Of a DNA stretch of 20,466 nucleotides, positions 4,362 through 15,034 are shown piece after piece; the stretch's first letter is position 1; every line of letters starts with the position of its first letter. A program made the position numbers and the translations under genes. The notes below the pieces were generated by a model. That model was not told the origin of the DNA and made no database searches. It saw only the letters and a list, made by a program, of their open reading frames with translations. Source of the DNA: a virus; IMG/VR virus record IMGVR_UViG_3300023178_000329, positions 1 through 20,466 of that record. One strand, written 5' to 3'.

Positions 4362-5010
4362 AGAGACCTGTCTTGCATGTAAAGCTGGCTACCATGATGA
4401 GTGCCAAGAGATGTGGGACGCCAACCTTGCAGAAGACGCATTTTGCTGCTGCAATGGCGCTTTCTCAATCGATGGAGGAAAGGGGCCGGTAGATGCGGTT
4501 CAGGAAGAAATCGAAGCCTACTTCGAAGGCTATACTGGGTCGAAAGCTTTGGATGAATATGCTGACCCTATTTCTACTGGGCGCAAAGAGGCAGCTAAAA
4601 AGTTCCCTATCAATCCAGGGATGGTCTGCGAATGGGCCTGGCTTCGTTACGCTGGCGGAGGTGTTGAACCAATCATTGGCTGCCCAGGGCATCCTGCTGA
4701 GGCTATACACCACGGCCCCGATAAGAACACGATGCGCAATGTTGAGGGAAACATACACCGTATTTGCGCTGAATGTCACAATCGTTGGCATGGTGCAAAT
4801 GATAAATATTACGGGGAAAGACCAGTCACAGAGGATGGGAAAGTCGATGCTTCTGTTCCATTCTGGCCTTTAGACGACGACGGTACCCCAATGGAGCCAA
4901 TCCCCCACGACACAGTCACGCTAGCTCCAGACGAAGAAGTTCACGCTGAGGACAAGAGAAGGCGGGACGAGGCTCGTCGCCACGGTAGTTTGCCTAAGCT
5001 CGACGATTAG
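4348..5010 (+). CDS. HNH endonuclease with N-terminal cysteine knuckle
   Basis: 220 aa from the ATG at 4348 (a TTG at 4339 would add three residues). It overlaps the primase-helicase end by 14 bases. The C-terminal half holds a zinc-supported HNH nuclease: Cys 94, GCPGHP with Cys 112, a His pair in AIHHGPDKN (about 121-122), then NIHRICAECHNRWHG with the Cys pair 140/143 and His 144/148. The N-terminus has a separate Cys-His cluster (CLACKAGYHDEC near 8-19, then a CCC run near 33-35) that looks like a small zinc knuckle. The last 40 residues are acidic and then basic. Phage HNH proteins may be homing nucleases or help process DNA for packaging; which applies here is open. The end meets the minus-strand phosphoesterase convergently with a 17-nt overlap. 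Confidence 0.85.
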   Translation: MTKSKETCLACKAGYHDECQEMWDANLAEDAFCCCNGAFSIDGGKGPVDAVQEEIEAYFEGYTGSKALDEYADPISTGRKEAAKKFPINPGMVCEWAWLRYAGGGVEPIIGCPGHPAEAIHHGPDKNTMRNVEGNIHRICAECHNRWHGANDKYYGERPVTEDGKVDASVPFWPLDDDGTPMEPIPHDTVTLAPDEEVHAEDKRRRDEARRHGSLPKLDD

Positions 5011-5980
5011 CCTTAAAGCGCTTCCCTCTAAACCAAGCTTCACCGTCCTGTATCTGGACAAGCTCAATGAACGGCTTATCGCCTTCAAGGACTACTACAG
5101 CTACGCCTTGCTGCCAGTTCTCTTGGTGCCTCGCTGGCGACCCGTCCGTATGCGTGCTGCTGCCAAATGAAGGCACCGCTCCATCTGTTCGGCAAAGGCA
5201 GCCAGGGCTGACGGCGATGCTTCGGATAGCTTCATCACGGTTGAAGACTGTTTTGGATTGGATTTCCAAACGATGTGAGTGCCCGAAGATGGTACTAATG
5301 TGAGGTTCAGCATTGGTGTACGCTGCTGCTGTTGACCCGTTGCTTCTTGCTTTTGTTCCGTGGATTGCTCTGAGCGTAGGGGTGAGCCAGTAGGCTCCTG
5401 CGGGGTACGCGTCAATGTACTCAACTCCAATCTCGTCTAGCCGCAACAGGTAAGGAATACTCATTACCGGCAGCTCGTCCATGTTTGCTCGCTTTAACCC
5501 CCAGGCTGCAGCAGAGTTCGTTAAGATAAACTTCTCCATACGGCGGTCGTGGTTACCCTCGATTAGCACCATCTCTGCCTTTGGGCCAGCAGCAGCTCGC
5601 TGCTCTTGAAGGAACAGATGCCCACGGTCGATTGCCTTCTGTGTCGTACCGGCAAAAGCTGGCTCCTGCTCAAAGCGACCTTGAGACGGTAAATCTAAAA
5701 AGTCTCCAAGGTTTATGACGTAATCAACCCTGTCAGTTTCTTCGAGGTAGGCGACAATCTGCAAAGCCACGTCCATGGCAGCTTCGTCGTGAAAGGTGTC
5801 CCAACCTTTATCAAAAATATGCCTGTACCCAATTTGAGGGTCAGGCAGGGCTACAGCAACCTTGTGTTTAGTCTTATAGGTCTTAGGCTCCTTGGGAGCG
5901 TTTATCATCACAGGCTGGGCTTGATGAATCAAGTCCCACTTAGGTTCTGGCTTTAGGCTACCCAGCATAATGGCAAGCAC
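4994..5980 (-). CDS. Calcineurin-like metallophosphoesterase
   Basis: 328 aa from a GTG at 5980; an in-frame ATG at 5968 would give 324 aa, and neither has a strong ribosome site. The metallophosphoesterase motifs appear in order: DPQIG (D47, Q49, the first motif with Gln in place of the usual His), GDFLD (92-96), GNHDRR (142-147), HGTK (207-210) and GHSH (233-236). A two-metal phosphodiesterase or phosphatase centre is therefore likely. The family includes SbcD/Mre11-type nucleases and many phage enzymes with unknown substrates. It is the last gene of the minus-strand block and overlaps the upstream helix-turn-helix-like gene, which suggests the two work together. It may act on nucleic acid, but the substrate cannot be read from sequence. 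Confidence 0.88.
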   Translation of the reverse strand: MLAIMLGSLKPEPKWDLIHQAQPVMINAPKEPKTYKTKHKVAVALPDPQIGYRHIFDKGWDTFHDEAAMDVALQIVAYLEETDRVDYVINLGDFLDLPSQGRFEQEPAFAGTTQKAIDRGHLFLQEQRAAAGPKAEMVLIEGNHDRRMEKFILTNSAAAWGLKRANMDELPVMSIPYLLRLDEIGVEYIDAYPAGAYWLTPTLRAIHGTKARSNGSTAAAYTNAEPHISTIFGHSHRLEIQSKTVFNRDEAIRSIAVSPGCLCRTDGAVPSFGSSTHTDGSPARHQENWQQGVAVVVLEGDKPFIELVQIQDGEAWFRGKRFKANRRA

Positions 5981-6188
5981 ACTTCTTTACTCTGTGCCTG
6001 CGAACTTGCGTTTCCGTAGCCTTAAAGCCCCTCTCAGTAAGGGACTCAGCTAGGCCGTTATTCGAAAAACGCCTATCGTCCAAGGCATTTACAAGGATTT
6101 CTAGGTCAGCTGAGTCGAGCTCTTCAGCAGCCTTCAGCATCAAAGAGCAAATGTGTTCTCTCTGTTTAGGTGCAAGTCCTTCTAACAT
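5958..6188 (-). CDS. Small helix-turn-helix-like protein, 76 aa
   Basis: ATG at 6188 with AAGGAG seven bases upstream on the minus strand. The product is all-helical in appearance. The C-terminal half (FSNNGLAESLTERGFKATET near 43-62, then QVRRHRVKKCACH) reads like a helix-turn-helix in which the second helix carries a basic HR segment, followed by a Cys-x-Cys tail. Such proteins ahead of a metallophosphoesterase seem familiar from actinophages, but this is recollection and was not checked. It overlaps the phosphoesterase start by 11-23 bases depending on the start chosen, so translation is probably coupled. A DNA-binding partner or regulator is the simplest guess. Confidence 0.7.
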   Translation of the reverse strand: MLEGLAPKQREHICSLMLKAAEELDSADLEILVNALDDRRFSNNGLAESLTERGFKATETQVRRHRVKKCACHYAG

Positions 6189-6219
6189 TCAAGTTCTCCT
6201 TAAAGGTTTGCTTGAATGT

Positions 6220-6248
6220 ACTATAACAGCTACTTTGACTTTTTTCTA
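6220..6248 (-). promoter_or_regulatory. Candidate minus-strand promoter for the HTH-phosphoesterase pair
   Basis: On the minus strand, TAGAAA (6248-6243) stands 17 bases from TATAGT (6225-6220), which is preceded by TGT, giving an extended -10. A start near 6213 would leave a short leader before the ATG at 6188. The -35 half lies inside the end of the preceding gene. The -10 matches five of six consensus bases and the -35 four of six. Confidence 0.4.
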
Positions 6249-6472
6249 GACTTCTTCACTGCTTTGACTTTTTGCTCGGCAGTTAGCTCGGTGCCCTCTG
6301 GACGCTCAAAGGGAGTTCCGTCTTGGACAAGACCGTCTCCATCGCCATCTGTAGCGTCAGACTTGTAGCCGCTAGTGTCCACTTCCTCGACTAGCTCATA
6401 TGGGTACAGACCCACGTAACGAGCTGGAAGCTCCTTGACGACTCCTGTTACTACGTTTCTTAGCTTAGGCAC
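6230..6472 (-). CDS. Small protein with DGDGDG calcium-loop-like motif, 80 aa
   Basis: Start chosen at the GTG at 6472, because GGAGGAG lies just upstream on the minus strand and the start overlaps the preceding stop by eight bases. The longer open frame to 6727 has no such support and would run through the preceding gene. The middle of the protein holds DATDGDGDGLVQDGTPFERP (39-58), an Asp-rich loop like an EF-hand or dockerin calcium loop. The C-terminus is lysine-rich (KAVKKSRKKSK). From memory, a DGDG...QDGTPFERP pattern recurs in small actinophage proteins and in tail-associated ones. It lies in the tail gene block, so a virion or assembly role is plausible, but I cannot name one. Confidence 0.65.
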   Translation of the reverse strand: MPKLRNVVTGVVKELPARYVGLYPYELVEEVDTSGYKSDATDGDGDGLVQDGTPFERPEGTELTAEQKVKAVKKSRKKSK

Positions 6473-6773
6473 TTGGCTCCTCCTCTGGGGCTGGTATCCA
6501 CTGTCCGTTATAGTCATCTGCAACCCAAACTGTGCCATCCTCAGGCGGAGGGTCGCTTGGCATTGGAAGCACAAGGGGCCTATCTGGGCCAGGCCCTCCA
6601 GTGCGCTGAGTTGGGTCTTCTCTGTGAGCCGCAAAAGCAACAGCCCATTCGGTCGCCTGCTCTTCACTTTCCCATGGAGTTCCGTCCGGCCATGTGGGCT
6701 GATGCGCGAACAGGACGCCGTCATCAAAAATAGTTAGCCCGTTTTCTGGACTAAATTCACTTGAAATAGTCAT
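6465..6773 (-). CDS. Small tail-associated hypothetical protein, 102 aa
   Basis: ATG at 6773, sharing an ATGA four-base overlap with the stop of the large receptor-binding gene, so it is translationally coupled to it. It is acidic and Pro-rich. The first half has a PTWPDGTPWESEEQATEWA segment (about 26-44), and the end has GTVWVADDYNGQWIP. Small acidic proteins coupled to a fibre or spike gene are often fibre chaperones or assembly factors, and the WP-DG-PW pattern followed by a helix is reminiscent of such proteins. No domain is firmly recognised. A minor virion protein is the alternative. Confidence 0.65.
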   Translation of the reverse strand: MTISSEFSPENGLTIFDDGVLFAHQPTWPDGTPWESEEQATEWAVAFAAHREDPTQRTGGPGPDRPLVLPMPSDPPPEDGTVWVADDYNGQWIPAPEEEPSA

Positions 6774-9202
6774 TCGACCACCTTAAATTTGGTTGAAAGA
6801 AGCTGAAATAAGCTGTATGTTTGCCAATTCAAATCGTAATAATCGCTGGCCCCAATGTCTAAACCTCCAGGAACCGAATCGTTGGCACGCGATGTTACTT
6901 GAAATAGTCCAAACTCAGATAGGCCTTGATTTTCGCTATCTCCTGCGCCAAATGACCTTTGTCTAGTAACTCTGGAAACTAGAGAACCATCACCGCTCAA
7001 CAAGTCGATGCGAGTGCCCCCTGTGGTGTCTGTACTAACCATAAAGTAATAGGTACCTAACACTGCGATTATTTCCGTTCTCGCAGTGAAGCTGAAGGTA
7101 TACCAGTTGCTTTGCAAGATGAAGCCATCTGGCGTCATCTCTGCTCGGTAAACATTCGAGCCACTCATTCCATGGAAGTAGCATTTTCCATTTACGATTC
7201 TGGGCCCAAGAGAATAATAAGTGCTACTCCAGGTACTACCGGTTCCTACCTCGCTCAACTGCTGAAGAGTACCATCGCTAGTTGCTACCGTTACATATGC
7301 ACCGTAATTCTGGTTTGCCCCCCAAAGAGCATAGACTTTTTCGGGGTCGTCAGGGTCAAAAGCAGGATAATTGAAATAAGCGTTACCACCTGAGTACTCA
7401 GTAAAGTTATTCCCATCATAATATCCGCCAGGATGGCTGCTGTTGTAGCCAGAAGAAAATAGATACTTTTCATTTGCTATAAACTGGTAACTGTAGTACC
7501 AGTTGGTGCTTTTGCTGCTGCCTACATAAGTAGACCCATTCCACCAGTAGCGGTAGTCGCTGTTGGAAGCCCATTGGCTGACGTAAAAAGCTTGCTCTTT
7601 TGGGTACCAGCAAAGGCTTTGTTTGCTGGTACCACTCCAGTAAATAATTCGCCAAGTTCTACCGTAGTCAGCACTTAGGCAGTCCCTATTGTCTCCGGAT
7701 AATGCGCAGATAAACTGACCTGTAGGGTCAGAAGCCACACGATTACTGTACAAGGGGCCGTTGTACTTTGGCGCTGCAAAATACACATCGTTATCATCAA
7801 CGTGGAAAATGTGCGGAGGATATTCCGAATAACCCGCAATGCCAGCTATGTCACCGTTTCTGTCCTTGAAGGTTACAGAATTACCGTAAACGGTAGTGGC
7901 AAGGCTGCTTTCATAATTGTATTGACTTGTGTGGTTTACTTGAGTAAAGGTACTCGAAGAAGTTGCATACGCTGCCTTAACGCCAGTTGTGTAGCCAGTC
8001 ACCATGACCACAGTCTTGCCGGCAGTTACTTGAGGCTGTGCGCAATAAGTCCCCGTGGTGCTGGCAATAAGACGGCTAGTCCAAGCTCCGCCCAGTGTGT
8101 CTGCGGTGTAAACTTTGTTGTCGTTGATTTGCGTTGTAGTCCAAAAGTCACCCACGCTGTTGTAAACAGGCTTAAACCATGAAGCGGTAGACGGCATCGA
8201 CCAGTCGCTAAAGCTAGCGCCATTATCAGTGGAGTATTTTATGACGTTGGCGGCGTTGCTACCCGCCCTTAAGAATACAACACCATTTTCAACGTCTAAA
8301 ACTTCATAGGTACTGGTACCAACGGCTGCTCCCTGGCTCCAGTTAAGGCCATCATCATCCGAATAAAAAAGGTCTGTATCCGTATTTGAGAATACGTAAT
8401 GGCGACCGTTTACTCCGACACTCGGGTCATATTCAAAGCTAAGAACGCCGCTAGAGGCCAAGCCTGAAATAGTGATAGTGCCGCCGGCTGAGTCCCAACC
8501 AAAAATATTTTCGTCAGCGTTGTAAACATATCTTTTTATCTGGTTGGTGTTAGCAGTGTGTGCAGTAAGAAGAGAAGTGTTACTTACGCTGAAATCACCA
8601 TAAGTCGTATAACCATAATCGTAATCCCCAGTAGACCCTGTGTAGCCATAGTGGCGCTGCCGATAGGTGCCGTCATTTTTGTCGTACCCGATTATCCAGC
8701 TGGTACTTCCAAAATTGGTTAGGCCGCGGTTGAAGAACACAAAATTGTCATTTTCTTTTACCCTGCCATTCATCGTAGTGAATTGAGGATATTCGCTGTA
8801 GTGTTGGTCCCACACCAAATGCCCGTAGCCCTCGTAAGAAAAAAACTTTAGCGAAGCAGGAGTGGCCGCTACATCAAATTGGGCAATTGTAATAAAGCCC
8901 CCAGTTACGCCCGAAAAGAAAAGCTTGGCAAAATTTCCTGAAGCTGCTAAAGAAAACCCGCTTTTACCTGCAGCATCAAGAGTTACAGTGCTAAGGGGGG
9001 TTGGCGTTTCGTCGGCATTGACTCCCGAAATTGAAACAGAATCCCCCGCAGCGCCCTGAATATCAATCCAATAAGTTTGTCCCGAGGCAATATCGACAGA
9101 TATCGTGCCAGCGCCATTTAAGCTTGCAGCAGCAAGCACCGTCCATCCAGTGTCGGTTCCACCGGCCCCGCCCGCTCCGGGCTTAAATGTACTTACTGCC
9201 AT
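6770..9202 (-). CDS. Large receptor-binding tail protein with Asp-box beta-propeller repeats
   Basis: 810 aa from the ATG at 9202, sharing a TAATG junction with the preceding gene. Residues 1-115 form a Gly/Ala-rich beta domain that could attach it to the virion. The centre carries Asp-box motifs of the sialidase/BNR type: SDDDGLNW (281-288), STDNGASF (324-331), SADYGRTW (510-517) and a variant near TADTLGGAW (366-374). This suggests a six- or seven-bladed propeller. The region about 540-615 is unusually rich in Tyr, Trp, Asn, Ser and Gly. A separate beta domain occupies about 690-810. The likely role is host surface or glycan recognition at the tail tip. No sialidase catalytic set (Arg triad, Tyr/Glu pair) can be assigned, so enzyme activity is unproven. 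It is the largest gene of the minus-strand block. Confidence 0.8.
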   Translation of the reverse strand: MAVSTFKPGAGGAGGTDTGWTVLAAASLNGAGTISVDIASGQTYWIDIQGAAGDSVSISGVNADETPTPLSTVTLDAAGKSGFSLAASGNFAKLFFSGVTGGFITIAQFDVAATPASLKFFSYEGYGHLVWDQHYSEYPQFTTMNGRVKENDNFVFFNRGLTNFGSTSWIIGYDKNDGTYRQRHYGYTGSTGDYDYGYTTYGDFSVSNTSLLTAHTANTNQIKRYVYNADENIFGWDSAGGTITISGLASSGVLSFEYDPSVGVNGRHYVFSNTDTDLFYSDDDGLNWSQGAAVGTSTYEVLDVENGVVFLRAGSNAANVIKYSTDNGASFSDWSMPSTASWFKPVYNSVGDFWTTTQINDNKVYTADTLGGAWTSRLIASTTGTYCAQPQVTAGKTVVMVTGYTTGVKAAYATSSSTFTQVNHTSQYNYESSLATTVYGNSVTFKDRNGDIAGIAGYSEYPPHIFHVDDNDVYFAAPKYNGPLYSNRVASDPTGQFICALSGDNRDCLSADYGRTWRIIYWSGTSKQSLCWYPKEQAFYVSQWASNSDYRYWWNGSTYVGSSKSTNWYYSYQFIANEKYLFSSGYNSSHPGGYYDGNNFTEYSGGNAYFNYPAFDPDDPEKVYALWGANQNYGAYVTVATSDGTLQQLSEVGTGSTWSSTYYSLGPRIVNGKCYFHGMSGSNVYRAEMTPDGFILQSNWYTFSFTARTEIIAVLGTYYFMVSTDTTGGTRIDLLSGDGSLVSRVTRQRSFGAGDSENQGLSEFGLFQVTSRANDSVPGGLDIGASDYYDLNWQTYSLFQLLSTKFKVVE

Positions 9203-9534
9203 TATGCAATCTCGCTTCCGAATGCTTGGAACGTAAGGGCATCAGCCGTGCCAGACTGCACGGTGATTACATCTGTGGCTGCCAAGGTGATACCAACTGT
9301 GACAGCAGTAAAGTCGTTTGCGGTAACTGAGCCGTCGTACACTAGCGCATTGCCAGCAGCTGCAGCAGCTCCGGCAACTCGGACGAAAATTCGGCAGGTT
9401 GCGTCGGTGGCAGTGACATTGCTTACCACAATTGTGGAAATCACCGCCTCGGTGCTAGCTGGGACGGTGTACAGGTCAGCGTTTGCGGTGTCAGCAGGTG
9501 CTGCCTGTCCTAGTACTTTGTATGTAGTTGCCAT
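9202..9534 (-). CDS. Small virion-structural-type protein, 110 aa
   Basis: ATG at 9534, with TAATG junctions on both sides. It opens with MATTYKVLGQAAPADTANA and LYTVPAST, a pattern I associate with a family of small phage structural proteins that occurs near tail fibres. The rest is an Ala/Thr/Val-rich beta sandwich-like sequence (ISTIVVSNVTATDATCRIFV, then ITVQSGTADALTFQAF). There is no signal peptide, membrane span or catalytic motif. Its place between a fibre-base-like protein and the large receptor-binding protein suggests a connector or decoration protein of the tail fibre. The exact role is unknown. Confidence 0.7.
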   Translation of the reverse strand: MATTYKVLGQAAPADTANADLYTVPASTEAVISTIVVSNVTATDATCRIFVRVAGAAAAAGNALVYDGSVTANDFTAVTVGITLAATDVITVQSGTADALTFQAFGSEIA

Positions 9535-9821
9535 TAGCTTCCCATCAACATGAAGTGATTTTCAAGACCTGGAGGTGTGTAGTCCGTAATGTCTGCCATA
9601 ACGTGAGTGTGAGCAGAAGGGGTGAAGGTGCTGGGCACGTTCTCCAGCTTTGACCAGTCGGTTGCGTAGCCCAAAGAAGTCCAGGCGGTTGAGCCATCAC
9701 CAATCTTAAACTGAAGAGTGTCAGTCTCAACGCCGATTTCACCTACTGAAAGAGTAGGGTCGGCGCTAGTCCATTCGGCGGCTGTTCCTCGCCGCTGTTG
9801 CATCAGATTTACTGCAGGCAT
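9534..9821 (-). CDS. Tail-fibre base-like protein (Mtd/hyaluronate-lyase N-terminal-like domain), 95 aa
   Basis: ATG at 9821 with a GGAAGG site upstream on the minus strand. The segment QQRRGTAAEWTSADPTLSVG (8-27), followed by EIGVETDTLQFKIGDGSTAW, is the classic phage fibre N-terminal pattern seen in Mtd-N/hyaluronate-lyase-N-type domains, which fix fibres to the tail. After it comes SAHTHVMADITDY, a His-x-His link that in longer fibres leads into the shaft. Here the protein ends about 20 residues later (PPGLENHFMLMGS), so only the attachment part is present. It may act as a stand-alone adaptor, or be a shortened fibre whose tip is encoded by a neighbouring gene. Confidence 0.75.
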   Translation of the reverse strand: MPAVNLMQQRRGTAAEWTSADPTLSVGEIGVETDTLQFKIGDGSTAWTSLGYATDWSKLENVPSTFTPSAHTHVMADITDYTPPGLENHFMLMGS

Positions 9822-9857
9822 TAGACCTTCCTAGGGGACAAGATAATTCTACACCAT

Positions 9858-10445
9858 CTATAGCTGAACGTGGTATACACCAGCTATGTGAAAATTATCT
9901 GCTATGTCGAGGGTAACAGGCACATTGTAGGTAAAAGGGACGTCGCGCCCGTTAGAAGCAGTGCTGTAAAGCTTTAGTACATCAGACCCAGCATCAACGT
10001 GGCCGCTGATTGCGTACTGGTCACTGCCCGAAATGTCGTGGAGGCACCCGTCGCGCACTAAGAAAGCGTGGTCTGCAGCGAATGGCAGGGTTAGGTAGTA
10101 CTGCCCGCTACCGAAGCTTGTGATGTTGTCGAAGTCCACGTCAATCTGGAAGTGGCACAGGTTGCCAAAGATGGTGTAGCTGCCGGTAATCAGCGGGTCG
10201 CCAGTAAACGTTGGCTGGGTGCCATCTGTCCCGCCCAATGGAACGTAAACAGTGTCGCTGGCTGGGTCAAGGTCGGAAAGCTTTATCTTGTGCGAGTCTG
10301 TTCCGTCGTGACGGTGACTTCCTGGACTAGCCTGAAAAGCTTCTGGGCCTAGTGTATGATGTATAGCAGTAATGCCACTATCTACGTCCGTTACTAACGG
10401 CTCATTAGATTGCTGCAGATTTCGGTCGCGAGGTGAAAGTGGCAT
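9858..10445 (-). CDS. Tail fibre / minor tail protein with beta-rich C-terminal tip, 195 aa
   Basis: ATG at 10445, with no clear ribosome site. It is the first gene of the minus-strand block. The N-terminus (MPLSPRDRNLQQSNEPLVTD) leads to SHRHDGTDSHKIKLSDLDPA (43-62), a His-x-His fibre linker. From about residue 80 on there is a single beta-rich domain (SYTIFGNLCHFQIDVDFDN, YYLTLPFAADHAFLVRDG, and the end NFHIAGVYHVQL) of the jelly-roll-like kind often found at the tips of small phage fibres. It is a probable fibre or collar fibre of the virion. The start is 24 bases from the divergent resolvase-like gene. Confidence 0.75.
   Translation of the reverse strand: MPLSPRDRNLQQSNEPLVTDVDSGITAIHHTLGPEAFQASPGSHRHDGTDSHKIKLSDLDPASDTVYVPLGGTDGTQPTFTGDPLITGSYTIFGNLCHFQIDVDFDNITSFGSGQYYLTLPFAADHAFLVRDGCLHDISGSDQYAISGHVDAGSDVLKLYSTASNGRDVPFTYNVPVTLDIADNFHIAGVYHVQL
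10332..10360 (+). promoter_or_regulatory. Candidate rightward promoter for the packaging and head genes
   Basis: CTGAAA (10332-10337) and TATGAT (10355-10360) are separated by 17 bases, matching four and five of six sigma-70 consensus positions. The site lies inside the oppositely oriented fibre gene, about 110 bases before the ATG at 10470. Since the divergent gap is only 24 bases, a promoter for the rightward genes would be expected to sit in such a place. Confidence 0.35.
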
Positions 10446-10469: not shown

Positions 10470-10904
10470 ATGAGTAAGGCTAAAGCAATAGGGACTCGCG
10501 CAGAAACTGCTGTACGAAATTATCTTCTATCAGTTGGGTACTCAGAGCTGGATGCGCACAGAAATGTGCTTACTGGCTCTGAAGACCAAGGAGACGTATG
10601 GCTCAGAGAAGCCAAGTGGGGTCTTATCGTCTTTGAAATCAAGGGCGGCAAAATGGCTAAGAACGCTAGCCATGAACAGTGTGTTAGGTGGCTTGAAGAA
10701 GCCGAAAGAGAGAGGGATAATGCTCAAGCCAATTTTGGCTTTGTTGTTACTCAGCGGGCTGGTGTGGGTTACCCACGTGCTGGCGAATGGTGGGCGTATG
10801 CCAGACTGGATGACGTACTTGCTCTATGCGGGAACGATTCTCGTCTTTACCCCCATGTCGTTAGGCTTAGCCTTAGGGAGCTAGTAGACCTAATAAATGC
10901 CTAG
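10470..10904 (+). CDS. PD-(D/E)XK nuclease, Holliday-junction-resolvase-like
   Basis: 144 aa, ATG at 10470 with GAGGAG just upstream. Motifs of an Hjc/VRR-type PD-(D/E)XK nuclease are visible: GTRAE with Glu12 in the first helix, an Asp in QGDVW (D42), and the Glu-x-Lys of VFEIKGGK (E56, K58). A helix with Glu and Arg residues and a beta strand FGFVVTQ follow. Such enzymes cut branched DNA. Directly before the large terminase, a role in resolving replication branches before packaging is reasonable. The gene shares an eight-base overlap, ATGCCTAG (10897-10904), with the terminase start. The name is by motif and context; a different structure-specific nuclease is possible. Confidence 0.78.
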   Translation: MSKAKAIGTRAETAVRNYLLSVGYSELDAHRNVLTGSEDQGDVWLREAKWGLIVFEIKGGKMAKNASHEQCVRWLEEAERERDNAQANFGFVVTQRAGVGYPRAGEWWAYARLDDVLALCGNDSRLYPHVVRLSLRELVDLINA

Positions 10905-12411
10905 GCAACAGAAGATAAATCCAGCCGAGCTGCTCTACCAGATGTCGGAGCAGATTCGCACGACATCTATCATGCCTAATCTAAACCGCTACAAGCCTCA
11001 CCAAAAGCAAGAAGACTTCGCAAAAGACCAGCACAAGCACAGGCTGTACATTGGGGGTAACCGTTCCGGTAAGACCGTTGCTGGCGTGGTAGAGGATATT
11101 CGCTACCTAAAAGGTGAGCATCCACACCGCAAAGTTCCAGAAGCCCCTGTCCGTGGCCGTGTAGTTGGGGTTGACTTTGCCTCTGGTATCGACAAGATTC
11201 TCTTGCCTCAGTTCGCTCAATGGACGCCAAAGAGCCTGCTAGTCAATGGCTCTTGGGAGGACAGCTACAGCAAAGAGCGAAGAGTCCTAAAGCTTGAAAA
11301 CGGCTCCTTCGTCGAGTTTATGTCCTACGACCAGGACTTGCAGAAGTTCGCTGGAACCTCTAGACATTTCGTCCATTTCGACGAGGAGCCGCCAGAATTA
11401 GTGTACGACGAATGCCGTGCTCGTTTGGTCGATACAAACGGAGATTGGTGGATGACGCTAACTCCAGTTGAGGGTATGGAGTATATCTACGAGCAGGTGT
11501 ACTTGCCAGGCAAAGAAGGCCACGACCTGTTCGGCGTTACCGAAGTAGAGATGTCGGACAACCCCTACCTAGAGCGTTCAGCAATCGAGGAGTACCTTGC
11601 CTCCCTAACGCCAGAGCAACGAGCCATTCGTGAAAAAGGGCAGTTCATTCAGGTTGGCGGTGCCGTCTTCAAGGACTTTAACCAGCTAACCCACACCATA
11701 CCGCCGGAGCACTTCAAGCTGACGCCTAAGCACCGCATATATGTCAGCGTGGACTACGGCTGGCGCGACCCTACTGCAATTCTTTGGCACGCAGTCGCCC
11801 CCAACGGCCACATCGTTACTTTCGCTGAGCACTATCAGTCCCACATGACTATTGCAGAGCACGTCGAGGTCTTCCATAAAAAGAACGCTGAGATGGGAAT
11901 CCAGCCTTACCTTGTGGTTGGAGACCCAGCACTTGCTCAAACAAACGGCATGAAGGGCACTAGCTATCAGCAGGAGTTCAACTTGCACGGGATGAATATC
12001 ATCATTGACATTATTCCTAAGAAGATTGGTGTTGGTCTAAACAAGATGCAGCAGTACATGAAGACCAACCCCAACACGGGCAAGCCGTTCTGGCAGGTTA
12101 CAGACGACTGTCCCAACCTGATTTCTGAGCTAGGAAAACTTAAATACAAGCGGCGTGCCAACAGGCAGCAGGAGTTCACGCTAAACAAACTAGAGGAGAT
12201 ACAAGACAAAGATAACCACGCATTTGATTCATCAAGATACTTTTTTACACTTATGGATGACTTGACACCTGATACGATAAAGGGACTAAAGGAGAGACTT
12301 ATGGACTTTGATGATACGCCTCCAATAGCTCAGTTCGATAATCGAAGAGACCCTGGCTATTCGGGATGGAAGTTCAGGTCATCCTCCGATGATGCTGTAG
12401 GATGGGAATAA
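10897..12411 (+). CDS. terL: Terminase large subunit
   Basis: 504 aa packaging motor. The N-terminal ATPase has Walker A GGNRSGKT (53-60), Walker B HFVHFDEEP (157-165) with catalytic Glu, and the coupling motif TLTP (187-190). The C-terminal RNase H-like nuclease shows three acidic residues: D286 in YVSVDYGWRDP, D343 in LVVGDPA, and D444 in NHAFDSSRYF. All expected active-site residues are present, so the protein appears intact. It would recognise concatemeric DNA with a small subunit, drive it through the portal and cut it. No small terminase subunit is identifiable in the window. The start overlaps the resolvase-like gene by eight bases and lacks its own strong ribosome site, which implies coupled translation. 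The stop forms a TAATG junction with the next gene. Confidence 0.95.
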   Translation: MPRQQKINPAELLYQMSEQIRTTSIMPNLNRYKPHQKQEDFAKDQHKHRLYIGGNRSGKTVAGVVEDIRYLKGEHPHRKVPEAPVRGRVVGVDFASGIDKILLPQFAQWTPKSLLVNGSWEDSYSKERRVLKLENGSFVEFMSYDQDLQKFAGTSRHFVHFDEEPPELVYDECRARLVDTNGDWWMTLTPVEGMEYIYEQVYLPGKEGHDLFGVTEVEMSDNPYLERSAIEEYLASLTPEQRAIREKGQFIQVGGAVFKDFNQLTHTIPPEHFKLTPKHRIYVSVDYGWRDPTAILWHAVAPNGHIVTFAEHYQSHMTIAEHVEVFHKKNAEMGIQPYLVVGDPALAQTNGMKGTSYQQEFNLHGMNIIIDIIPKKIGVGLNKMQQYMKTNPNTGKPFWQVTDDCPNLISELGKLKYKRRANRQQEFTLNKLEEIQDKDNHAFDSSRYFFTLMDDLTPDTIKGLKERLMDFDDTPPIAQFDNRRDPGYSGWKFRSSSDDAVGWE

Positions 12412-12941
12412 TGGCTAGAACATTTAGACTGGTTGAGCGCGGGCAATATGCCCCGCATCGCTGTATTGTCACGGGAATAACGGGTAAAGCCGATACTCCG
12501 TTGATTGATTTGGGTGCTGAGCCTGAGTACTATGGAAGGGTGTACTTGAGCTACGGAATCCTTGCGGCGCTCGCAGACCAGTTTGGTTTTGCGACACCAG
12601 AAGTAGCAAATGCGCTACGCACAGAAAACGAACAACTGAAAAAGAGACTAGACCGCGTACCTGCGGTGACCGAAAGGCTTGTAAATGACATTAGAGACAT
12701 CTCTATTAGTGTTACTGCTGACCTTCTTAGTGAGCCTACCCCTGTCGTTCTGGCTGATGACAAAAAGCCTGAACAAAGCAACGCAGGGGCTAATCTCGAC
12801 TACTTTGGAGACGACAAACCTCTTGAAGACAACAGTGAACCTGCTGTCGTCGAGAGACCCGCTAGCGTTCCAGCAAATAATGGCAGCAAGCGGAGTACCA
12901 ACAGCACCAAACCCAGAACAGGCAGTTCTGGTAAACGATAA
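12411..12941 (+). CDS. Hypothetical protein, 176 aa, with overlapping disordered tail
   Basis: Start chosen at the ATG at 12411, which shares TAATG with the terminase stop; an in-frame ATG at 12402 would add three residues. The first 60 or so residues look folded (RLVERGQYAPHRCIVTG, EYYGRVYLSYGILAALADQF). A short coiled coil follows near 65-80 (RTENEQLKKRLDRV). The C-terminal third is Ser/Asn/Pro/Lys-rich and probably disordered. That part is encoded by the same bases (12685-12941) as a second gene in another frame, which explains its odd composition. I do not recognise the family. Its place between terminase and portal suggests a packaging or head role. Confidence 0.7.
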   Translation: MARTFRLVERGQYAPHRCIVTGITGKADTPLIDLGAEPEYYGRVYLSYGILAALADQFGFATPEVANALRTENEQLKKRLDRVPAVTERLVNDIRDISISVTADLLSEPTPVVLADDKKPEQSNAGANLDYFGDDKPLEDNSEPAVVERPASVPANNGSKRSTNSTKPRTGSSGKR

Positions 12942-13008
12942 CTATCCTGAGGTAGATGAAGATGAGTATGATTTCGACGCCGTCCGAAAGGAATATGGCA
13001 TCCAGTGA
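12685..13008 (+). CDS. Small membrane protein overlapping the previous gene out of frame, 107 aa
   Basis: ATG at 12685 with AAGG seven bases upstream (GAAAGGCTTGTAAATG). 257 of its 324 bases are shared, in the +1 frame, with the preceding gene. The sequence looks like a real protein: one membrane helix (about 7-26, LLVLLLTFLVSLPLSFWLMT), a Lys just after it, an amphipathic stretch (QGLISTTLETTNLLKTTVNL), an SSRDPLAFQQI motif (about 56-66), and an acidic tail YPEVDEDEYDFD. From memory, similar one-span proteins with a S-K/R-DP-x-x-FQ motif lie before the portal in other phages. Its last 14 bases overlap the portal start at 12995. A membrane or assembly role is possible; a holin is not supported. 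Confidence 0.7.
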   Translation: MTLETSLLVLLLTFLVSLPLSFWLMTKSLNKATQGLISTTLETTNLLKTTVNLLSSRDPLAFQQIMAASGVPTAPNPEQAVLVNDNYPEVDEDEYDFDAVRKEYGIQ

Positions 13009-15034
13009 CCTAGTCGCTGAACTTGAAATTGAAGTTGAAGAAACGGCCAACACTGGCCTTCTTGACGATGCAGCGCTCAAGCAGCTGCAGGATTCTAAGA
13101 AGGGCAAGAAGCTCGTCGACTACCTAAAGAAGGAATACCAGAAGTCGAAGGACGCCAAGCAGTGGCGTGTACGTCAGTGGTACATGAACATGTCCTTCGA
13201 GCGTGGTAAGCAGTACGTGGCCTGGGACTCGACCAAGAGTGGCTTGTCCCAGCTCCCACGTGGCGACAAGAACACGCCAAGAATTACCATCAACAAGATT
13301 CGCCCTATTGTCAGGACGGAAATAGCTAAGCTGACCTCGCAGAAGCCCACCGCTGTCTGCCTGCCAGCTTCGAACGATGTAGAAGATGTATTTGCTGCTA
13401 CTGCCGCTACACAGGTCTGGGACAGTCTTTATGACCGCCTCAACGTAGGGCGTAGCATGCGCCTAGTGGCCAGAGACGTTTCTGTCCTTGGTTTGGGATA
13501 TCTCAAGGTCTACTGGGACTCAGGCAAGTATGACGAATGGAGCGACCAAGAAGGTGACGTCTGCATTGACCACATTTCTCCATTCAACATCTTTGTCCCA
13601 GACCTATCAATCGTTGAGCACGACGAGCAGCCATACGTGTTGCACGTTTACACAAAGCCAATTGAATGGCTAAAGATGACTTACGGCGACCTTATCCCAA
13701 AGGACAAGCAGCCTACCGTCGTTGCAGCAACTGAGATTGCCGACATCTCTTCTGCACTTGACATTAGAGAGAACAACAGCAAGCCAGACGCTAGCCTTGT
13801 TATTGAGGCGTGGGTAAAGCCAGGAACTACCGAGCTTCTTCCTCAGGGTGGCTACGTCACAATTGTTGACGACATCATCGTTGAGGCTTCGCTCACAGGC
13901 TTCCCTGCAGGCTACAAGAACTACCCAATCGTTAAGTTCGAGCACATCCCAAGCGGACAGTACTACCCAGCTTGTGTTATTGATGATGTGATTCCGCTGC
14001 AGCGTGAGGTAAACAGAACCCGCTCTCAGCGCATTCAGGCCAAGAACATGATGGCTAAGCCACAGGTTTACTACCGAGAAGGTTCGCTGACTGTCTCAAA
14101 GATAAACACATCTCCGGGACAGTACATCGGAGTTCGCCCAGGGTTTGAGTACCCAGCCGCAGCTCCAATGCCACAGCTACCTCCTTACGTGTCAGAGGAG
14201 CTGCAAGCTCTAGACACCGACCTAGAGAACATCTCTGGTCAGCACGAAGTCTCAAAGGGAACCACACCTCCAGGAGTTGAGGCAGCTACTGCTATTGCTT
14301 ACCTGCAGGAGCGTGACGACAGCTACCTTGCACCTACTTTCGCATCAATCGAAGAGGGCCTTTCAAGGACAGCAAAGTGCGCCCTGATGCTTGCTGCCGA
14401 GTACTGGACTGGCGAGCGCACGGTGAAAGTTGTTGGAGACAACAACGGCTTCTCAGCTGAGATGTTTAGCGGTGCAGACATAGCGCGTGGTACCGACATC
14501 AAGATTGAAGCAGGCTCCGCACTACCAACATCAAAGGCTGCCAAGCAGTCATTGGTAATGGACATGATGCGCCTTGGCCTAGTTCCGCCAGAAGAGGGAC
14601 TTGAGCTTCTAGACATCGCTACCCTAAGCCGTTACACAGACAACCGTGGCACTCGCCCAGATGAGCTGCGTGCTCAGCGTGAAAACGTTATGTTCAAGGC
14701 TCTAGGTGAAATGGACGTGATGCGTCACTACCAGAGATGGCAGCAGGGCGTCGAGCAGGGTAACCCTGAGATGCTCAACCCAGACACTGGTCAGCCACTG
14801 AAGCCACCAGCAATCATCCCAGTAAACAAGTGGGACAACCACGCTGTTCACATTCAGGAGCACGACAACTTCCGCAAGAGTCCTGCGTACGACTTGCTAA
14901 GCAACAGCCAGAAGGCCGAGCTAAACAAGCACATCGATATGCACGAAATGGCACTTGCTGCTCTGCAAGCTGCTCAAATTCAGCAGATGCAAATGGGCGC
15001 AATGCCGCCACAACAGGCAAAACCACAACAGTAA
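12995..15034 (+). CDS. Portal protein (P22-like)
   Basis: Start set at the ATG at 12995 (679 aa) with AAAGGA close upstream. In-frame ATGs at 12956 and 12962 would add up to 13 residues that look non-conserved. Recognisable portal features are a basic wing region (KEYQKSKDAKQWRVRQWYM), the NKIRPIVRTEIAKLTSQKPT segment (about 100-119), VNRTRSQRIQAKNMMAKPQV (in the clip/stem region), and a long Gln/Met-rich helical C-terminus (QAAQIQQMQMGAMPP) like the barrel helices of P22-type portals. It would form the dodecameric ring at one vertex through which DNA enters, and dock terminase and adaptor. It is followed nine bases later by the scaffold gene. Confidence 0.9.
   Translation: MASSDLVAELEIEVEETANTGLLDDAALKQLQDSKKGKKLVDYLKKEYQKSKDAKQWRVRQWYMNMSFERGKQYVAWDSTKSGLSQLPRGDKNTPRITINKIRPIVRTEIAKLTSQKPTAVCLPASNDVEDVFAATAATQVWDSLYDRLNVGRSMRLVARDVSVLGLGYLKVYWDSGKYDEWSDQEGDVCIDHISPFNIFVPDLSIVEHDEQPYVLHVYTKPIEWLKMTYGDLIPKDKQPTVVAATEIADISSALDIRENNSKPDASLVIEAWVKPGTTELLPQGGYVTIVDDIIVEASLTGFPAGYKNYPIVKFEHIPSGQYYPACVIDDVIPLQREVNRTRSQRIQAKNMMAKPQVYYREGSLTVSKINTSPGQYIGVRPGFEYPAAAPMPQLPPYVSEELQALDTDLENISGQHEVSKGTTPPGVEAATAIAYLQERDDSYLAPTFASIEEGLSRTAKCALMLAAEYWTGERTVKVVGDNNGFSAEMFSGADIARGTDIKIEAGSALPTSKAAKQSLVMDMMRLGLVPPEEGLELLDIATLSRYTDNRGTRPDELRAQRENVMFKALGEMDVMRHYQRWQQGVEQGNPEMLNPDTGQPLKPPAIIPVNKWDNHAVHIQEHDNFRKSPAYDLLSNSQKAELNKHIDMHEMALAALQAAQIQQMQMGAMPPQQAKPQQ

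Follow-up and report, generated by a model that had tools for sequence, protein, structure and literature searches.

The window, a stretch of 20,466 nucleotides corresponding to positions 1 to 20,466 of the virus record IMGVR_UViG_3300023178_000329, contains two genes that share 257 nucleotides in different frames of the same strand, between the genes for the large terminase subunit and the portal protein. We will use the terms U and M for the upstream and the downstream gene, respectively. From the comparison with related sequences, both are almost certainly real genes. Constraint on the shared DNA is split, with U constrained over approximately the first 17 codons of M and M constrained further on. 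The pair is a new conserved overprinted pair that includes a new protein family, in an arrangement of a known kind. A preliminary description of the window had proposed these two frames in the terminase-portal interval as plausible genes, and both open reading frames are present there. The features of the locus are as follows:

10897..12411, plus strand: terminase large subunit, 504 aa (PHROG phrog_2, 8.7e-28; Pfam Terminase_6N)
12411..12941, plus strand: gene U, 176 aa, with an N domain, a long helix and a disordered tail (open reading frame, homologues, AlphaFold2)
12672..12676 (give or take a base or two), plus strand: AAAGG, the Shine-Dalgarno (SD)-like site for M, inside the U codons for Thr-Glu-Arg-Leu
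12685..13008, plus strand: gene M, 107 aa, predicted single-pass membrane protein (open reading frame, relatives, selection signal)
12685..12941, plus strand: U/M overlap, 257 nt, with U in frame 0 and M in frame +1
12685..12735, plus strand: stretch of the overlap in which the constraint is on U, at the end of its conserved helix, over the membrane helix of M (omega)
12736..12941, plus strand: stretch of the overlap in which the constraint is on M, over the disordered tail of U (omega)
12956..15034 (start 12956 or 12998), plus strand: P22-like portal protein (PHROG phrog_156; Pfam P22_portal, 6.5e-22)

The gene order is terminase, U, M, portal. The ATG at 12411 is the likely start of U because it forms a TAATG junction with the terminase stop codon; an alternative in-frame ATG at 12402 would give a protein of 179 aa. 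Both possible starts of the portal reading frame fall within the 3'-terminal part of M, and the M/portal overlap covers 12956-13008. The first ~14 residues of this frame (MKMSMISTPSERNM) may be a by-product of the conserved acidic C-terminus of M in the clade of the window, and the true portal start may be 12998.

Relatives were collected as 128 partly redundant loci with a portal match, obtained by portal-based scans and from annotated phages; some of the pattern scans were defeated by the divergence of M and of distant portal alignments, and other portal queries were used there. Profile searches with both proteins, as suggested in the preliminary description, detected M in 114 of the 128 loci and U in 115, and the absence of M homologues that had been named there as an argument against the pair was not seen. 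Ten of the 14 loci without M begin inside or just before the portal gene, two have distant outgroup portals, and the last two (L042, which is ctEqG8, and L126) carry U with an overlapping +1 reading frame that has no membrane helix. U homologues are found in every ingroup locus that has upstream DNA, and U and M always co-occur in the sampled lineage, with the membrane-less reading frame in the place of M in L042 and L126. The 78 distinct M proteins are all encoded in the +1 frame relative to U, with overlaps of 74-332 nt (median 188), at least 150 nt long in 68 of the 78 pairs. Since the overlap is present throughout the portal tree, it is, as judged from these sequences, ancestral to the sampled lineage and not recent. 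Bacterial genomes scanned with the portal yielded no relative, and hence no prophages.

The membrane-less reading frame of the ctEqG8 clade (L042:3664-3948, L126:3218 onward) keeps an acidic tail. It is possibly an M that lost its anchor, and the hhalign comparison with M (E 0.025, probability 2%) is only suggestive. In some close relatives of the window, L016 (3130-3450) and also L017, L018, and L020, an extra basic reading frame of ~106-118 aa (MGIMASGAWQRKAGKNPKGGLNE...) lies directly 5' of U and takes the place of the terminase end seen in other relatives.

The ATG of M at 12685 is preceded by AAAGG at a distance of ~8 nt. In 65 of 77 loci (84%, an inflated value since the starts were partly picked by their SD), an SD-like 4-mer precedes the M start by 5-15 nt, compared with 9% elsewhere in the same U phase and 7% before other start triplets. 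The start codon of M is ATG in 68 of 78 cases. The U residues encoded at the SD site vary by clade (TERL, EGV, KEL, EEL, REG), while the purine-rich site itself is kept. Judged by sequence only, the second frame has an independent translation start, in agreement with the good ribosome-binding site that had been noted for it.

The strongest evidence for M comes from the pattern of substitutions. In the region that encodes U alone, the divergence at U codon positions 1/2/3 is 0.33/0.25/0.57 in clade A, 0.26/0.20/0.53 in clade B, and 0.19/0.18/0.53 in clade D. In the overlap, the corresponding values are 0.33/0.20/0.18, 0.33/0.18/0.14, and 0.34/0.19/0.15, so that the slowest position is the U third position and the fastest is the M third position, which is the U first position. 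The U-synonymous distance in clades A/B/D is 0.71/1.06/1.58 upstream and 0.22/0.20/0.24 in the overlap, a 3-6-fold reduction, and the U-nonsynonymous/M-synonymous changes rise from ~0.2 upstream to ~0.6 in the overlap. This is the measurement of synonymous-site constraint that had been proposed for the two frames, and it places the M frame under purifying selection. M is taken to be a real, selected gene because U-synonymous divergence falls in the overlap and the M third position becomes the fastest. In six clades, the omega of M (dNN/dNS) is 0.15-0.41. Applied to non-overlapping controls, however, this +1-frame estimator returns 0.50-0.95; it is biased low, which makes M omega values around ~0.3 less remarkable than they first seem and tempers their weight as evidence. 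The robust signal of selection is the lost U-synonymous change and the shifted constraint, not the M omega.

M could also be a functionless open frame that arose by chance inside U and is conserved as a by-product of U. In the window alone, the +1 stretch stays open in 3.6% of the synonymous-codon shuffles of U (P = 0.036), which is only mildly surprising, and in some relatives an open +1 frame is likely by chance; across the relatives, the open frame is far beyond chance. The substitution pattern refutes this explanation and leaves it with next to no probability: the suppression of U-synonymous change falls exactly within the overlap, the variation at M positions is mostly at M third positions, the conserved sequence of M continues beyond the point where U ends, and the SD and the DPxxFQ motif are conserved in the 78 proteins. 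The relatives, the SD, and the suppressed U-synonymous change bear out the two frames of the preliminary description as real genes.

The split in constraint is seen when the overlap is divided along its length. Over M codons 2-17, which cover the end of the conserved helix of U, the omega of U is 0.27 [0.07-0.85] in clade A and 0.37 [0.12-0.79] in clade B, and both intervals lie below 1. From M codon ~18 onward, the omega of M in clade A is 0.12-0.39 and that of U is 0.90-1.65; in clade B, the omega of M is 0.01-0.29 and about 0 in the last part. U is more constrained over the first ~17 codons of M because the membrane helix of M overwrites the end of the conserved helix of U. The AlphaFold2 model of U agrees with this split, being confidently folded to residue ~107 and disordered after it. 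The overlap would be tolerated as a result of this division: the last conserved helix of U lies over the membrane helix of M, whose sequence may vary provided that its hydrophobicity stays, and the conserved soluble part of M is paired with the disordered tail of U, where the identity of the amino acids may be of little importance.

The tail of U has a pLDDT of 44-58 after residue ~110, which agrees with its earlier description as low-complexity. It had also been called Ser/Asn/Lys-rich, which is roughly right; family-wide, the richest residues are Ser, Ala, Asp, Gly, and Pro. Simulations in which only M is selected introduce stops in the U frame in an average of 12/15, 16/19, and 8/11 tips, never in fewer than 3, and the observed number is 0; the compared stretch was the part inside all U genes, which gives a mild bias. 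Because the U frame is open in all tips although M-only simulations bring in stops, the tail is probably kept as a disordered Ser/Ala/Asp/Gly/Pro-rich segment, the exact sequence of which hardly matters. Long tails are dispensable or variable, since U proteins that end soon after the helix exist in the Microbacterium phage Shocker, L113-L115, and L064/L066/L067, with overlaps of 74-98 nt. It has to be considered whether M is the only gene in the shared stretch, with the U tail an unselected and inconsequential read-through. The near-neutral amino acid change of the tail in clade A, its predicted disorder, and its different length among clades would all be expected from such a read-through. It is nevertheless unlikely, given the open U frame in every tip, a U end that is nearly fixed within clades (the overlap is 251-257 nt in clade A), and a tail whose composition is regularly rich in Ser, Asp, and Pro. 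A better fit is a disordered linker or spacer with selection acting on its composition.

The direction in which the overlap formed is suggested by the same observations. In simulated prokaryotic overlap formation, 3' extension of the upstream gene is the commoner route (PMC3887535). The tail of U is near-neutral and is short in some clades, and there is a good probability that it is a secondary extension, most likely formed by U reading through into M. The preliminary description regarded M as the older frame and the U tail as the newer one. This holds for the tail from M codon ~18, where U is the partner free of constraint, as an overprinted extension should be, but not over the first ~17 codons of M, where U is the more constrained. 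Which of the two whole genes is older is not decidable here, because U and M always occur together in the lineage.

The U protein begins with MARTFRL and has a zinc-ribbon-like N domain, a long helix at residues 63-107, and a disordered tail from ~108 in the AlphaFold2 model. CxxC...CxxC zinc ligands, the kind looked for in a zinc-ribbon (ClpX-ZBD-like) protein, are found in 43 of 78 relatives; they are absent from the U of the window and have been lost in several clades. In the U homologues without zinc ligands, the surrounding sequence pattern (the 12411-12680 region of the window) is kept. The U of the window has no convincing PHROG or Pfam family and no PDB sequence match, and a fold search found no significant PDB match and one viral match (A0A898KB96, E 1.6e-4, 175 aa), which is probably the U homologue of the Cellulosimicrobium phage DS1. 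A tblastn search against annotated phages gave a weak match to halovirus HCTV-1 (E 6e-3), which is non-syntenic and antisense and was rejected as chance. The resemblance of U to a small terminase subunit, with its DNA-binding N domain, oligomerising helical core, and C-terminus that contacts the large subunit, is loose and architectural only, and the terminase small subunit is absent among the PHROG and Pfam matches of U. The U homologue of the Arthrobacter phages is phrog_37518, annotated as gp13 in Jasmine, where an unannotated M homologue overlaps it by 329 nt. Compared with the window, Jasmine has a longer U and a longer M; its U has no zinc cysteines, and M is not in its record.

The M protein has the features first noted for it, one N-terminal hydrophobic helix, a DPxxFQ motif (within SSRDPLAFQQ), and an acidic C-terminal tail. 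A strong N-terminal hydrophobic stretch is present in 76 of 78 M proteins, and in 68 of 78 the residues directly following it carry more positive charge than those before it, which predicts an N-out topology with the acidic C-terminus in the cytoplasm. In the AlphaFold2 model, M is a single long helix interrupted ahead of the DP motif; the global confidence of this model is low (pLDDT 70, pTM 0.33). The M of the window has no tblastn match among annotated phages, no PHROG match, and no PDB sequence match; its Pfam matches are weak, sub-threshold, and to unrelated families, and no PHROG family common to the M relatives was found.

We propose that U and M are genuine late genes of a podovirus lineage that would be translated independently from one operon message, M by means of a separate ribosome-binding site that lies within U codons. 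M may be an inner-membrane protein made beside the portal that anchors or chaperones portal or prohead assembly at the membrane. T4 needs gp40 for the assembly of its portal (gp20) at the inner membrane (PMC9958956). M would share with gp40 only this proposed role of helping portal assembly at the inner membrane, and no gp40 homology was found through the PHROG and Pfam family matches of M. The role in portal or head assembly is based on operon place, topology, and this analogy, and is suggested here tentatively as a possibility that falls short of being probable. The explanation as a whole, in which two overprinted genes with split constraint include a gp40-like assembly helper, has about an even chance of being correct. 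It is rather improbable that M founds a new family of membrane-anchored portal or prohead assembly factors, overprinted on U since both products work jointly at the portal; should this be so, membrane-linked head assembly of the T4 kind would be more widespread and hidden by gene callers that reject overlaps. The Pagevirus gp3 (phrog_14137; Bacillus phages Page, Pascal, and Pony) is a small helical protein in the same terminase-portal slot, with a hydrophobic N-terminus and an NPFE-AQ motif reminiscent of the DPLAFQQ of M. However, Pageviruses have no U gene and no long overlap, and homology of M to gp3 was rejected by profile comparison (hhalign probability 0.3%).

Other functions of M have to be weighed against the assembly role. 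M is a small, single-pass membrane protein, and in the two-component spanins Rz/Rz1 of the lambda and P2 type, the classic overlapping phage pair, two proteins are likewise made from overlapping same-strand frames, often +1, with the second gene frequently unannotated (PMC6139136). M might thus be a lysis protein, either holin-like or the inner-membrane member of a spanin pair with U. The outer-membrane lipoprotein partner of a spanin is not found in U, a soluble protein with a folded zinc-ribbon-like domain and a long helix and, by inspection of its sequence, with no signal peptide or lipobox. Nor does M resemble an i-spanin, which has its C-terminal part in the periplasm, as the charge pattern in 68 of 78 M proteins predicts a cytoplasmic C-terminus. 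On the predicted topology and the nature of U, a spanin identity was rejected as unlikely. The hosts of the isolated relatives are Gram-positive actinobacteria, for which a spanin is unnecessary, and M lies between terminase and portal. A holin role is unlikely in Jasmine, where a holin is annotated beside lysin A, far from M, and a lysis function overall is very improbable.

Blocking of DNA entry is a common activity of small phage proteins anchored in the membrane, and M may be a membrane-bound superinfection-exclusion or DNA-entry factor merely sited in the head operon. The strict linkage of M to the portal over the lineage and its co-conservation with U suggest a head or packaging role instead, and leave exclusion or entry with a small share of the probability. 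Podoviruses also have internal proteins with a function at the membrane in ejection, and M is encoded beside the portal, as might be expected of a minor portal- or core-associated virion component that is ejected into the membrane at infection. M is, however, small and lies away from the large candidate ejection genes, and this function too is doubtful.

Gene M is largely missing from public annotations. It is unannotated in all eight matched Arthrobacter phage records (Brad, Adat x2, GurgleFerb, Nellie, Casserole, and Jasmine x2) and in DS1; the M frame of Brad is at 6914-7369. In Shocker, it is annotated in a 5'-truncated form starting at 3631 of L041 instead of 3532, just past the end of U, and the membrane helix is lost from the annotated gene. 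In the Jasmine record KU160650 (L039/L129), the gene numbers skip 14 between U (13) and the portal (15), where M lies. Long overlaps are suppressed by gene-calling programs (PMC6139136, PMC3887535). The earlier remark that such overlaps are rare in phage structural operons has to be read with this caveat, M itself having been overlooked in most annotated relatives that were examined. A whole small-protein family has thus been missed or truncated. Few overprinted pairs have substitution evidence for both frames; this one, which is long, conserved, and on a single strand, joins them from the head operon, where such overlaps have seldom been looked for. It shows how DNA can be shared: a constrained stretch of one protein is placed over a stretch where the other is tolerant, and partway along the two exchange roles. 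The cultured phages Jasmine, Brad, Shocker, and DS1 carry the pair, and its expression and function are testable there.

Elsewhere in the window, the minus strand at 4994-9858 encodes a calcineurin-like phosphoesterase and several long open reading frames (810 aa, 195 aa), which sit between the early genes and the terminase.
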